Shown piece after piece: positions 4,035-32,301 of a stretch of 35,313 nt of DNA (positions within the stretch are counted from its first letter, which is position 1; the number at the start of each line of letters is the position of its first letter). Source of the stretch: a virus; the IMG/VR virus record IMGVR_UViG_3300009155_000129, positions 1 to 35,313 of that record; one strand, written 5' to 3'. The position numbers and the translations under genes are program-made. The notes beneath the pieces were generated by a model, which made no database searches, was not told the origin of the DNA, and was given only the letters and a program-made list of their open reading frames with translations.

Positions 4035-4414
4035 AGACGAGACTGACCCTCGACCACTTGCCGCCCTCCGTGAACGCGATCTGGCGGTTCTCAAAGAAGG
4101 CCGGGAAAATGTACCGCACCGAAGCCTATAACACATGGGCCAATGGTGAGGGCTGGAACGTCAAGGCGCAACTACAGCGCCAGCACAAGTTCACTGGCCC
4201 TGTGTATGTCACCCTCGCTATGCGCCGCCGCCGATCGAACATGGACGGCGACAACTTCCAGAAAGGCATCTTCGACCTTCTGCAATCCGTGGGTGCCATC
4301 GAAAACGATAAGTTCATCATGGGCTGCAACTGGTACTGGTCAGCGAACCTCCCAGACGGCGTTGCGGCTGAGATTACGATTGTTCAGGCAGACGCTCTGG
4401 AGGATGCGGCATGA
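4031..4414 (+). CDS. rusA: RusA-family Holliday junction resolvase
   Basis: A 127-residue endonuclease that cuts four-way DNA junctions, useful in phage recombination and packaging. The N-terminus has the RusA signature LPPSVNAIWR. The metal site is clear: Asp72 and Asp74 in NMDGDNFQKGIFD with Lys78, and Asp93 in ENDKF. This spacing matches the Asp70, Asp72, Lys76 and Asp91 of E. coli RusA shifted by two. Length is typical. The ATG overlaps the methyltransferase stop (ATGA) and its own stop overlaps the next start. Confidence 0.92.
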   Translation: MKTRLTLDHLPPSVNAIWRFSKKAGKMYRTEAYNTWANGEGWNVKAQLQRQHKFTGPVYVTLAMRRRRSNMDGDNFQKGIFDLLQSVGAIENDKFIMGCNWYWSANLPDGVAAEITIVQADALEDAA

Positions 4415-5016
4415 CGTTCTGGACCGAGATAGCGATTGCCCAGCACCTTGACGGGCGGTTCTACCAGCTACAGCAGAAGTCCCTTGGCACGTTTGAGGTT
4501 GTTGACCTTAACGAGCCTAACGAAATTGAAGAAGAATCCGCAGTCTACACACGCTGGAGCGCGCAAGAGCTAACCTACCTTGTCGAACTGAAGCGGCAGG
4601 GCAAGACGCACCACGAATGTGCTGTGGCCGTGGGTCGTACAGACGCGGCTGTCATGGACAAGTGGCAGAACCGGATGACGTGGGCAGAGCGTGTTGACGT
4701 TCCCCGCAAGGGTTCTCTGCGGATGGATGACATTGCCCGCGTGTGCTGCGGCGTCTGGAACATCACCCGCGAAGAGTTCAATAGCTCCCGGCGCTCCGTT
4801 CACATCGTTGCCGCCCGTCAGGTCTTCTACTGGTTGGCCCGCCGCTACACTTCGCACTCACTGCCACAGATCGGCATCTATTGCGGTCGCAAGGACCATT
4901 CAACCGTCCTGCATGGCGTGAACAAGGTTGACCAACAGATCGACCTATACCGCACCAAGATTAAAATGTGTGTGTTCGATTTAGGCGTGTCACCCCCGCA
5001 ACAGGAGGCTGCATGA
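4411..5016 (+). CDS. SANT/Myb-like + DnaA domain IV protein (putative replication regulator)
   Basis: A 201-residue two-domain protein. Residues about 48-88 (TRWSAQELTYLVELKRQGKTHHECAVAVGRTDAAV) look like a SANT/Myb helix-turn-helix. Residues about 105-185 match DnaA domain IV, the part that reads DnaA boxes: RSVHIVAARQVFYWLARRYT, LPQIGIYCG and the signature RKDHSTVLH at 160-168. DnaA's ATPase domain is absent. It may target host or phage origins, or act as a decoy or regulator; this is inference. The N-terminal segment LDGRFYQLQQKSLGTFEV resembles that of the next gene, so the two are probable paralogues. It overlaps both neighbours by ATGA. Confidence 0.82.
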   Translation: MTFWTEIAIAQHLDGRFYQLQQKSLGTFEVVDLNEPNEIEEESAVYTRWSAQELTYLVELKRQGKTHHECAVAVGRTDAAVMDKWQNRMTWAERVDVPRKGSLRMDDIARVCCGVWNITREEFNSSRRSVHIVAARQVFYWLARRYTSHSLPQIGIYCGRKDHSTVLHGVNKVDQQIDLYRTKIKMCVFDLGVSPPQQEAA

Positions 5017-5525
5017 TTACCGAACTCGAAATGAAGGAAGCCCTTGATGGGCGGTTCTTCTGGCTCGACCACAACAACGAACGCATCGGCTGCTCGCTAG
5101 TTCCGAAAGACTATATCCCTGACCATGCCCCGGCTTTTGATGAGGAAGCCAATGCCGAGAGTGGCCGCAAGGGCGGCATGACCAAGCACCGCGCATGGAC
5201 CCCGGCAGAGGATGAAATGCTGCTTGAACTGCGCGCCCAAGGGCTTCGTTGGCAGCACGTAGGCAAGCAGCTTGGTCGTGGCGACAAGGGTGCTAGGGCG
5301 CGTTACCTGGAGATATGCAAGACCTGTGAGATTGCGCCGACGAAGTGCATCAGGGCGAAGCGCAACATGCTGACGATGTTCCAGAAGAAGGAAATCATCA
5401 GGATGGTTGAGCAGGGGTTCACCTTCCCTGAGATTGACGATGCGCTAGGCCTTCCTGACTTCTGGGCGCGTGACTTCTGCACACGCTACAGGCGGGAACA
5501 AAATGCTCGGAGGATGGCAGCATGA
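5013..5525 (+). CDS. SANT/Myb-like HTH protein, paralogue of the preceding N-terminus
   Basis: A 170-residue protein starting at ATG 5013 (ATGA overlap). It begins with ALDGRFFWLDHNNERIG, similar to the start of the SANT-DnaA protein. It then has a SANT-like segment (RAWTPAEDEMLLELRAQGLRWQHVGKQLGRGDKGARARY, residues about 64-105) and a C-terminal second helix-turn-helix-like region (EIIRMVEQGFTFPEIDDALGL). It is likely DNA binding, with a role in early regulation or origin recognition by analogy with its partner. It lacks the DnaA domain. No enzymatic motif is seen. Confidence 0.7.
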   Translation: MITELEMKEALDGRFFWLDHNNERIGCSLVPKDYIPDHAPAFDEEANAESGRKGGMTKHRAWTPAEDEMLLELRAQGLRWQHVGKQLGRGDKGARARYLEICKTCEIAPTKCIRAKRNMLTMFQKKEIIRMVEQGFTFPEIDDALGLPDFWARDFCTRYRREQNARRMAA

Positions 5526-5623
5526 GTGACGCAGCATTCTGGTCGGTCATCGTGCTTGCCAGTGTGTTTGCGCTGCTTTTGTCAGTGGCCTGCGGAGTGG
5601 AGTTAGGCCGCTACTGGGATTGA
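5522..5623 (+). CDS. Single-span membrane microprotein, 33 residues
   Basis: The ATG at 5522 overlaps the stop of the preceding gene (ATGA), and the 33-residue peptide is almost entirely one transmembrane helix: FWSVIVLASVFALLLSVACGVEL, then a short GRYWD tail. It is the last member of the coupled chain that starts at 2998, with a 68-base gap before the replication gene. Inner-membrane location is likely; function is unknown. Confidence 0.55.
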   Translation: MSDAAFWSVIVLASVFALLLSVACGVELGRYWD

Positions 5624-5691
5624 TGTGCATAGGGTTCACAACCCCATCGCAATGATTGAACTCAACCTGTTTTGAAGGCACATACTGCTAG

Positions 5692-6435
5692 ATGAACGTC
5701 GAGAACCTTAAACGACTTATGTCTCTGGGCCTGACCACTGAGCAGATGGCAGGCGTCATTGATGTGCTAGCTGTGGAGTTAGCACCTCTGGAGGCAATGA
5801 GAGCGGATGCAGAGTTGCGCCGTTCCAAGGATCGTCTGAGGAAATTCCGTGGAAATTCCGTGGAAATTCCGGTGGAAACTTCCATGGAATCCCCCACACC
5901 CCCTATAGATATAACTACTACTCAAGTTTTAGAAAAATTACCCCCAACCCCCAAGAACTCCCGGCTCCACGGAACGAACCCGCGTTCGCTCGGCACCAAT
6001 CCCCGTGGCTCAGGCGTTGAACCAGACGGCTTCAGTGCCTTTTGGGATGCCTATCCCAAGCGGGATGGCAACGCTGACCGCAAGGGCGCTGTGAAGGCAT
6101 TTGGGCCAGCCGTGACAAGGGCAGGGGGGCATGAACAGGTTGTCCGTGCTGCGGCTCGTTACGCGGTCCACTGCCGGGAAAAGGGCAAGATCGGCACCGA
6201 GTTCGTGAAGCAGGCGCGGTCATGGCTCAACAGCGACCTGTGGCGTGAATGGATGCCCCAGGAACTGCCGCCCGAAGTCACCAGCACCCGCGTTTATGTC
6301 CTCACAGGTACGGACCAGATGGACGCATGGGACGCCTTCTTCAAGCGCACCAAGGGCAAGTTGGCCCCGCGTGACCAGCGTGGCGGCTGGTGGTTTGACA
6401 CGGAATACCCCCCAGCAATGGAGCAAGCAGCATGA
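5692..6435 (+). CDS. Putative phage replication initiation protein
   Basis: A 247-residue protein. The N-terminal about 45 residues are helical (LKRLMSLGLTTEQMAGVIDVLAVELAPLEAMR). Residues about 50-110 are a low-complexity linker rich in Pro, Thr and Ser. The C-terminal half has a module common in phage replication proteins: FSAFWDAYPKRDGNADRKGAVKAF, an Ala-rich helix, then ARSWLNSDLWREWM. This layout is like lambda O, with DNA binding at one end and helicase loading at the other, but the assignment rests on the C-terminal module only. The linker-coding DNA holds an iteron cluster and an A+T-rich tract that look like the origin. The start is uncertain because GAAGG lies 13 bases upstream. Confidence 0.65.
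   Translation: MNVENLKRLMSLGLTTEQMAGVIDVLAVELAPLEAMRADAELRRSKDRLRKFRGNSVEIPVETSMESPTPPIDITTTQVLEKLPPTPKNSRLHGTNPRSLGTNPRGSGVEPDGFSAFWDAYPKRDGNADRKGAVKAFGPAVTRAGGHEQVVRAAARYAVHCREKGKIGTEFVKQARSWLNSDLWREWMPQELPPEVTSTRVYVLTGTDQMDAWDAFFKRTKGKLAPRDQRGGWWFDTEYPPAMEQAA
5840..5940. other. Candidate replication origin: iterons plus A+T-rich tract inside the replication gene
   Basis: Five near-identical units follow head to tail: GGAAATTCCGT at 5840 and 5851, GGAAATTCCGGT at 5862, GGAAACTTCCAT at 5874 and GGAATCC at 5886, with 11 to 12 base spacing. Each is an imperfect palindrome. They are followed by a C-rich spacer and an A+T-rich tract at about 5903-5940, unlike the surrounding G+C-rich DNA. Iterons followed by A+T-rich DNA inside the initiator gene is the layout of ori-lambda. 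Origin function is inferred. Confidence 0.6.
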
Positions 6436-6608
6436 GCGAGACTCGGCCCGTATATGAACGCTGCCCGATGTATGGGGTTGAATGCGAGTACATCACGATA
6501 GCCCGCGCGGCGGCAGAGATTGCCACCCGCTACGATGACGCGCTCAAGCGCATGAACGACATGCAGGCTGAACTGGAATATCTGCGGCAGGAGGTCAACC
6601 GGGGATGA
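6432..6608 (+). CDS. Small hypothetical protein with C-terminal coiled coil, 58 residues
   Basis: The ATG at 6432 overlaps the replication gene stop (ATGA) and the TGA overlaps the start of the NusG-like gene. The N-terminal part contains two Cys residues (ERCPMYGVEC), which could be a partial metal site. The rest is a charged heptad-like helix (AAAEIATRYDDALKRMNDMQAELEYLRQEV), which suggests dimerisation. The coupling at both ends makes it a confident gene; the function is unknown. Confidence 0.7.
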   Translation: MSETRPVYERCPMYGVECEYITIARAAAEIATRYDDALKRMNDMQAELEYLRQEVNRG

Positions 6609-7060
6609 CTTGGGTAATTCTCAGAACCGACTTCCGCAAGGAACCCTATGTCGTTTCCCAAATTGGGAACATGGGCTTCCAGTGCTGGCATCCGGTCCAG
6701 GTTATTGCCGCCCGCCCAGCAATAGCCCGCCGAGTCACAGCCAAGGCCCAGCTACGGGCTTACCGTGAGATAGCGATATTACCCCGCCGCGTATTTGCAA
6801 GCGTGCCAGTGGCCGTCGTAGACGATCTACATGGAATCCGGCATTTGGTGGGCGTCGAGTTTGACGGCGACATGCGGCCTGTAGTTATCCCTGACGGCCA
6901 GATCGCGGCATTCCGTGCGGTGATTGATGCAGAGAACAGGGCGGCGCTGGCGCTATCACAATCTGCTAGCAAGCGTCAGAAAGCCAAATGGCGCGACCTC
7001 AAGGAAGCCCTGTCGGAAATGGTTGACCAAGCAAAGGCGCAACTTGAACAGGCCGCTTAA
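6605..7060 (+). CDS. NusG N-terminal-domain-like protein, candidate antiterminator
   Basis: A 151-residue protein whose first about 110 residues fit the NusG/RfaH N-terminal fold. It opens with WVILRTDFRKEPYVVSQIGNMGF, then CWHPVQV, a basic variable loop (ARRVTAKAQLRAYREIAILPRRVF), VASVPV, a VVGVEF-like strand and VIPDGQIAAFRAVI. The NusG domain binds the clamp helices of RNA polymerase. There is no KOW domain; the C-terminus is a charged helix. It is the last early gene, followed by a structured non-coding leader and the late genes, the position of Q in lambda, so I infer a role in late-gene antitermination. The similarity is by pattern only. Confidence 0.7.
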   Translation: MTWVILRTDFRKEPYVVSQIGNMGFQCWHPVQVIAARPAIARRVTAKAQLRAYREIAILPRRVFASVPVAVVDDLHGIRHLVGVEFDGDMRPVVIPDGQIAAFRAVIDAENRAALALSQSASKRQKAKWRDLKEALSEMVDQAKAQLEQAA

Positions 7061-7843: not shown

Positions 7844-9104
7844 GGTAGCCCGCAAGCTGGCACCGCTCATGCAGCCCACAAGATACGCGGCTGCGTTTGG
7901 CGGAAGAGGAAGCGGGAAGTCGCATTTCTTTGCAGAACAAATCATTCAGGACGCGGTGTCCATTTCCGGCCTTCGTGCTGTGTGCATCCGCGAAGTCCAG
8001 AAGTCTCTGAAGGAGAGCGCCAAGCGACTGCTTGAAGACAAGTTGGGCGAGTTCGGACTGGGCAAGGCTGACGGCTTCAACGTGCTTCAGGACCGCATCG
8101 AAACCCCTGGCAATGGCGTCATCATCTTTCAGGGCATGCAGGACCACACGGCAGAAAGCATCAAATCGCTGGAAGGCTATCAGAGGGCTTGGATTGAGGA
8201 AGCGCAGACACTTTCGGCTCGGAGCCTCGGCCTTCTACGTCCTACCATTCGCGCGGAAGGTTCGCGCATTTTTTTCAGTTGGAACCCTACGCGGAAGTCG
8301 GACCCTGTAGACCAGATGTTTCGCGGCGCTGAATTGCCCACAAACTGCGCCGTTGCCAATGTGAACTGGTCAGATAACCCGTGGTTTCCCGGCGTACTTG
8401 AGCAAGAGCGGCTCGATTGTTTACGAACCCAGCCTGACCAATATCCCCATATTTGGGAAGGCGACTACGCAACGGTGCTGACCGGAGCCTATTACGCCAA
8501 GCATCTTCAGGAAGCCCGCGAACAAGGCCGCATTGGCAAGGTACAGCCTGACCCGCTGATGCAAGTCCGGGCATTCTGGGACATTGGCTTCAATGATAGC
8601 ACGGCCATCTGGATCGCTCAGTTCGTTGGACGCGAAGTCCGTATCCTTGACTACTACGAAGCGCAAGGGCAGCCCCTCGCGAGCCACTTGGTTTGGCTTA
8701 GAGATCGGTGGAGTAACAGTTTATCTATACTCCCCCACGACGGTGCCCAGCATAGCAACATTACTGGAATCCGCTTCGCAGATCATATCCGCCAAGCTGG
8801 CTTCAAAGCTGAAACAGTAGATAACCAGGGCAAGGGCGCTGCGATGAAGCGCATTGAGGCGGCCCGCAGGCTGTTTCCTTCCATGTGGTTCAACGAAAAG
8901 ACAACCAGGCCGGGGTTAGACGCAATTGGCTGGTATCACGAAAAGCGCGACGAGGCCCGCAACCTGGGCCTTGGCCCTGACCACGATTGGTCTTCGCACG
9001 CCGCTGATGCTTTTGGCCTCATGGCCGTAGCCTACGAAGCCCCGAGAGAAAAGACGAAGCCGAGAGAGCGTATGGTTGTAGGGGCTGGATCATGGCTGGG
9101 GTGA
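7821..9104 (+). CDS. terL: Terminase large subunit (PBSX/Terminase_3 type)
   Basis: The 427-residue DNA-packaging motor, with ATPase and nuclease domains. Walker A is GGRGSGKS at residues 27-34, the Walker B-type segment is RAWIEEA at 122-128, and SWNP follows as in Terminase_3 proteins. The nuclease domain starts around residue 250 (FWDIGFNDSTAIW, first acidic residue) and has a late acidic cluster (DHDWSSHAADAFG, about 385-397). The first possible start is a TTG at 7821, overlapping the small subunit by 23 bases; an ATG at 7869 would remove the conserved VARKLAPL segment just before Walker A, so I prefer the TTG. It is complete and without damage. Confidence 0.93.
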   Translation: MTRSLNRKVARKLAPLMQPTRYAAAFGGRGSGKSHFFAEQIIQDAVSISGLRAVCIREVQKSLKESAKRLLEDKLGEFGLGKADGFNVLQDRIETPGNGVIIFQGMQDHTAESIKSLEGYQRAWIEEAQTLSARSLGLLRPTIRAEGSRIFFSWNPTRKSDPVDQMFRGAELPTNCAVANVNWSDNPWFPGVLEQERLDCLRTQPDQYPHIWEGDYATVLTGAYYAKHLQEAREQGRIGKVQPDPLMQVRAFWDIGFNDSTAIWIAQFVGREVRILDYYEAQGQPLASHLVWLRDRWSNSLSILPHDGAQHSNITGIRFADHIRQAGFKAETVDNQGKGAAMKRIEAARRLFPSMWFNEKTTRPGLDAIGWYHEKRDEARNLGLGPDHDWSSHAADAFGLMAVAYEAPREKTKPRERMVVGAGSWLG

Positions 9105-9132: not shown

Positions 9133-9297
9133 ATGATGAGTATGACCAAGCCAGCTTTCCCGCTTGAATTCTATAAAAAGGCTGGAGTTATTTTTGAAGA
9201 ATTCATGAGCAACGGCGTGAAGATGTTCCGCATCCGGGTCTATAGCGTCGAGCGTGATGAATTTGGGTGGAGCGAGCCCGTCTCGCTGGCGTATTAA
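9133..9297 (+). CDS. Small hypothetical protein between terminase and portal, 54 residues
   Basis: ATG 9133 (or 9136) follows AGGAG at 9122-9126, an ideal ribosome binding site. The peptide is MMSMTKPAFPLEFYKKAG..., then a beta-like stretch (KMFRIRVYSVERDEFGW), and ends at 9297 right before an unusually A+T-rich stretch. No family is recognised. Its good ribosome binding site and position in the late operon support it as a real gene. Confidence 0.6.
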   Translation: MMSMTKPAFPLEFYKKAGVIFEEFMSNGVKMFRIRVYSVERDEFGWSEPVSLAY

Positions 9298-9306
9298 TAT
9301 CTTTAA

Positions 9307-9337
9307 TTGACACCCTATTAAACCAATTAAATTAAAT
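9307..9337 (+). promoter_or_regulatory. Candidate promoter upstream of the portal gene
   Basis: A perfect -35 TTGACA at 9307-9312 is followed after 19 bases by TTAAAT (9332-9337) within an A+T-rich island (9298-9340). The -10 is only a moderate match and the spacing is long, so this is a candidate for an extra promoter feeding portal and downstream genes. Confidence 0.35.
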
Positions 9338-9357
9338 AATCACCGGAGGCGCGTGCA

Positions 9358-32261: not shown

Positions 32262-32301
32262 CTTTCTCCCGAAATGATACTGAAATGATACGGAAACCCG
32301 G

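Follow-up and report, generated by a model that had tools for sequence, protein, structure and literature searches.

The segment at positions 5840-5952 of the window, a 35.3 kb virus record, is very probably the replication origin of the phage and lies within the gene for the phage's own initiator (probability roughly 0.85). It consists of short palindromic iterons, an A+T-rich tract, and two C-blocks. Initiator molecules would bind the palindromic GGAA-N(1-2)-TTCC iterons, spaced about one helical turn apart, and the iteron-bound initiator would form a nucleoprotein complex beside the A+T tract. The tract (5902-5941), with AGATATAACTAC as its core, would then melt, and the C-terminal FWDAYPK domain of the initiator would assist in bringing the host replicative helicase onto the opened strands. 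Iteron binding, melting, helicase recruitment, and a replication start at 5840-5952 are all inferred steps. Such an arrangement would put one DNA stretch on double duty, the encoded peptide being expendable and the DNA not.

The gene content of the window comprises a cI-like repressor, an integrase, Erf, a methyltransferase, RusA, and head and tail genes, which identifies it as a temperate tailed phage. No named close relative was found by DNA search, and synteny with Rhizobium phage RHph_Y1_10 suggests that the host is an alphaproteobacterium. Two minor tandem repeats of the window, GAAATGATACG (2.4 copies at 32271-32296, adjoining the methyltransferase and integrase genes) and AAAAGACGCA (3.1 copies at 1682-1712, adjoining the repressor gene), are possibly excisionase or operator sites.

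The initiator gene and the elements within it

The initiator gene (5692-6435, + strand) encodes a protein of 247 amino acids in which PHROG profiles and AlphaFold2 delineate a basic two-helix N-terminus, a disordered linker, and a C-terminal FWDAYPK domain. The protein matches the phrog_270 replication initiation protein profile (E 1.8e-15), over its C-terminal domain, and the phrog_9327 primosomal protein profile (E 3e-10); Pfam gave no match. AlphaFold2 predicts the C-terminal domain confidently and the N-terminus with moderate confidence. Ahead of the linker there are only two helices (residues 3-11 and 16-53) and no winged helix, and seven of residues 43-53 are Arg or Lys. The N-terminal 55 amino acids found no useful match among phages or PHROGs. 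Comparison with solved structures yielded no sequence match to the initiator, no Foldseek match worth quoting, and VIA-align Z scores of at most 3.9; among viral structures it matched, among others, replisome organizers, a DnaD protein, and a RepA-like initiator. Neither a helicase nor a loader gene could be recognised next to the initiator gene: the ORFs at 6432-6608 and 6605-7060 match no loader family, though a loader of an unrecognised kind may be encoded there.

Residues 53-107 form the disordered linker, with pLDDT under 50 in two AlphaFold2 models. This linker is encoded by about 5848-6012, and the C-blocks, the A+T tract, and the greater part of the array lie at the start of that segment. 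The initial annotation had located the array in a linker between the N- and C-terminal parts of the protein, and the disorder predicted there in both models bears this out.

The iteron array (5840-5883, + strand) was established by direct reading, Tandem Repeats Finder, and motif counting. It is made of GGAA-N(1-2)-TTCC palindromes, with GGAAATTCC at 5840-5848, 5851-5859, and 5862-5870 and GGAAACTTCC at 5874-5883, so that units of 9-10 bp follow one another at steps of 11, 11, and 12. A degenerate fifth unit, GGAATCCCC (5886-5894, + strand), was also read directly; it has the GGAA half-site only and is absent as such from the close relatives L004 and L005. Five units at 11-12 base steps had originally been described; the spacing stands, but the count is better given as four units and a remnant. 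Tandem Repeats Finder places the best tandem array of the window at 5840-5889 (period 11, 4.4 copies, score 75), and all four occurrences of GGAAN{1,2}TTCC in the 35.3 kb lie within the array. By itself the motif count is weak, given a chance mean of 1.19 and four of 100 shuffles reaching four anywhere; the signal is the head-to-tail clustering. When amino acids 41-80 were recoded with the codon usage of the phage, at most three motifs appeared and none of 20,000 recodings reached four, which rules out a chance or codon-bias origin of the array. A peptide repeat is likewise ruled out as its cause, since the period of 11 is not divisible by 3 and the units consequently occupy each of the three frames. 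Neither the iteron peptide nor the iteron DNA has a BLAST match among phages.

Between the iterons and the A+T tract sits a C-block, CCCCCACACCCCCT (5891-5904, + strand), that the initial annotation did not include; L004, L228, and Rhizobium phage RHph_Y1_10 have an identical 14-mer in the corresponding position. The A+T-rich stretch reported after the repeats is real: 5902-5941 (unstranded) is the least stable 40-mer in the window and a probable DNA unwinding element, and the G+C content of 5904-5941 is 21%. Its conserved core, AGATATAACTAC (5907-5918, + strand), recurs, with all 12 bases unchanged, at the equivalent position in L004, L202, L228, and L229. A second C-block, CCCCCAACCCCC (5941-5952, + strand), was read directly; L004 retains it and L005 nearly does. 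Folding of the A+T region as a single strand, under a model that leaves G-quadruplexes aside, found only the palindromes of the array itself. The DnaA box TTATNCACA does not occur in the window, its one-mismatch sites number 9 against 16 expected, and there are no W-boxes or DnaA boxes near the A+T element. No sigma-70 promoter-like site was found in 5400-6500. GC skew, suggested earlier as a check, proved uninformative, the window having no clear origin signature. A second very unstable A+T-rich stretch, without repeats, lies at 9290-9350 in the spacer preceding the portal gene and is probably a regulatory spacer.

Conservation in close and distant relatives

The close relatives compared were L004 (initiator 86% identical) and L005 (68%); L002 and L003 are identical here and thus uninformative. 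The initial annotation had named loss of the repeats from close relatives that keep the protein as counter-evidence, and no such loss is seen, as both L004 and L005 retain four units in register. Between L005 and the window, 32 of 32 GGAA/TTCC bases are unchanged, compared with 4 of 16 centre and spacer bases (Fisher 2.6e-8); for L004 the corresponding fractions are 31/32 and 9/15 (p 0.003). The proportion of synonymous differences between the window and L004 is 0.11 over 5887-5955, compared with 0.34 in the N-terminus, 0.44 in the C-terminal domain, and 0.58 elsewhere in the linker. Taken alone this dip, with p about 0.01 from few sites and one close pair, would amount to moderate evidence. 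In L005 the peptide at the A+T tract is different, yet the tract is still A+T-rich. The diverged phages that share the C-block and AGATATAACTAC also have in common the SPTPP and DITT peptides that these elements encode, so protein-level constraint may also act on them. With that reservation, the comparisons support the view that selection acts on the DNA at the array, C-block, and A+T tract. The earlier proposal that DNA rather than peptide is selected is upheld both by half-sites that are kept while spacers diverge and by the conserved synonymous sites of the C-block and A+T tract.

The FWDAYPK domain occurs joined to quite different N-terminal domains. A distant set of 45 genes of this type, a few of them close to each other, was searched for tandem arrays against a synonymous-shuffle null (p up to 0.05). 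The top array is significant in 32 of the 45, and in 29 of these it lies within 100 amino acids before the motif; in 13 relatives it is not significant by this test. The unit sequences of the 29 linker arrays differ, the commonest period is 11 (9/29), and the period is not a multiple of 3 in 17/29. Several of the units are palindromes of the 4-N-4 type, for example CTCACTGAG in Gordonia phage Gsput1 and CGGAATCCG in L192. In annotated relatives, the neighbours of the initiator gene include genes for a DnaB-like helicase, DnaC, and a primase/helicase. Linker disorder, half-site and synonymous conservation, and linker arrays in most of the 45 relatives together support placing the origin in the linker-coding part of the initiator gene. 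For phages with this common, little-studied initiator domain, these results suggest that origins can be placed from sequence only, by searching the linker ahead of W..YP for codon-independent tandem repeats.

Some relatives share the short N-terminus as well. L202, identified through its protein, likewise combines a short basic N-terminus with 11-bp iterons of a different sequence, CGGGACAGTCA, and with C-runs followed by AGATATAACTAC. When viral contigs were scanned for AGATATAACTAC together with a C-run, 20 stretches emerged, three of which belong to the window lineage. In another three (L202, L228, and L229) the initiator has the short N-terminus and the element is placed identically, but the iterons differ; the other 14 are unrelated and probably arose by chance. 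Rhizobium phage RHph_Y1_10 has a short N-terminus and the C-block without AGATATAACTAC. Among 40 records, the C-block (at most one mismatch) is carried by four, at this place only, and AGATATAACTAC is found in five, again at this place only, apart from one stray one-mismatch site. A literature search that covered few subscription papers found no description of this subclass.

Arrays of GGAANTTCC are also present, by convergence or through a shared code, in the linkers of other initiators (L016, L019, L040, L066, and L152, with ORFs picked by eye). Pairs of GGAANTTCC in viral contigs show no enrichment of 11-bp spacing, multiples of 3 being dominant, and the motif in other phages is therefore not evidence by itself. 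In L014, L020, L021, L023, and L033, GGAANTTCC arrays with 11-bp steps lie beside AACCGT repeats or outside recognised replication genes, and these are possibly origins of other phage groups. The gene at 1465-2244 of L168 encodes an initiator whose short basic N-terminus is similar but whose C-terminus is of the DnaT type, and its iterons are again GGAANTTCC; this reads as domain shuffling that held N-terminus and iterons together.

A stand-alone DnaA domain IV (Bac_DnaA_C) protein is encoded at 4411-5016 (+ strand; PF08299, E 6e-21), and its gene co-occurs with AGATATAACTAC. All five records with AGATATAACTAC carry a DnaA_C gene, compared with 4 of 40 others (Fisher 1e-4), and in all five it lies upstream of both the initiator and the element, at no more than about 1.2 kb from the latter. 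Two of the five records were found via the element and two are close relatives; the association is therefore suggestive, and descent of the whole cassette from a common ancestor is the alternative. The DnaA_C proteins of the window and L004 (record L216) are encoded in the same place and differ strongly (motifs KDHSTV and RDHCTI). The gene looks swapped, given initiators that are 86% identical and iterons that are the same.

Comparison with known origins

In phage lambda, the origin lies midway through gene O and comprises iterons with an A+T-rich region beside them (PMC7466680; record NC_001416). The window likewise has iterons inside its initiator gene and an A+T-rich tract directly after them, and when lambda was put through the same script, iteron 4 proved to be immediately followed by the weakest 40-mer in gene O. 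Lambda iterons are 18 bp long, whereas those of the window measure 9-10 bp at 11-12 bp steps. Also unlike lambda, the window has an initiator without a winged-helix N-terminus, no recognised P-type loader next door, and an additional C-block and DnaA_C gene. No similarity between the initiator and lambda O was detected (BLASTP E 3.7; hhalign probability 0.2%). The original description of a lambda-like origin therefore holds for the layout but not for homology to O, iteron length, or N-terminal fold. The proposed origin would work like the lambda origin, but it is not a member of the lambda family.

An origin with an A+T-rich region inside the initiator coding sequence is also known from RepC/oriV of the repABC plasmids (Rhizobium etli p42d), where silent mutations in the origin region of repC abolished replication and no iterons were found (PMC3155836). 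The window shares the location within the initiator gene, and repC sets a precedent for a synonymous-recoding test; unlike RepC, the window has iterons, and no relationship to RepC is seen in its protein, which is without a Pfam match. In mycobacteriophages, a study of RepA suggested that the origin lies within repA or immediately before it, and saw no repeats in the regions searched (PMC7157519). Proteins of phrog_270, phrog_9474, and phrog_9327 (replisome organizer, RepA-like, and primosomal) resemble the window protein in their C-terminal W..YP domain and linker repeats, and in annotated phages their neighbours are helicase or loader genes. Most members have a winged-helix-like N-terminus, in contrast to the short basic two-helix N-terminus of the window protein. 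The window also differs from oriC-type origins in having no DnaA boxes near its unwinding element.

Alternative readings and the iteron-binding protein

The initiator itself, through its basic N-terminal helix, is the somewhat favoured candidate for the iteron binder, and the main alternative is a separate phage DNA-binding protein encoded upstream. In the latter arrangement the origin would still lie here, but an upstream protein would read the iterons or the A+T element, and the role of the 5692-6435 protein would be confined to delivering the helicase. Possible readers would be the DnaA domain IV protein (4411-5016) or an HTH-like protein (4968-5525), and the absence of the winged helix of its relatives from the initiator would fit, as would the DnaA_C genes upstream of the initiator in all five AGATATAACTAC records. 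This division of labour is nevertheless rather unlikely. The window and L004 have matching iterons but strongly different DnaA_C proteins, which speaks against DnaA_C binding the iterons, and the window has no DnaA boxes. The co-occurrence may reflect cassette ancestry, and a search for the element was what brought in two of the five records. L168 shares the iterons and has a similar N-terminus, with no DnaA_C gene in its 44 kb record, which points to the basic N-terminal region as the iteron partner.

Considerably less probable is an operator, in which a phage DNA-binding protein on GGAANTTCC would control expression of the initiator gene and replication would start elsewhere. Palindromic repeats of such size are also typical of operators; however, the array lies 150 bases inside a coding sequence in a region with no promoter-like site, it is coupled to the C-block and to the weakest DNA of the window, and most relatives have a tandem array in the same linker. 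Neutral tandem duplication, or a by-product of the encoded peptide, is scarcely credible. The linker is disordered and tolerates amino-acid change, but the 11-base period crosses frames, synonymous recoding never reached the array, and half-sites are kept while spacers diverge, all of which already strongly contradict this explanation.

The window may, tentatively, represent a distinct class of phage origin and initiator. In such a class the winged helix would have been lost, a basic helix would read 4-N-4 mini-iterons (gaps of 1 or 2 bp), and melting would occur at a conserved C-block/AGATATAACTAC element co-evolving with a stand-alone DnaA domain IV protein of the phage. The conserved melting element and the stand-alone DnaA domain IV gene form a directly testable pairing. 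In L202 (1494-1545) and L229 (about 8740-8805) the C-block is expanded into several C-runs, and the four or more G-runs on the opposite strand could form a G-quadruplex beside the melting element.
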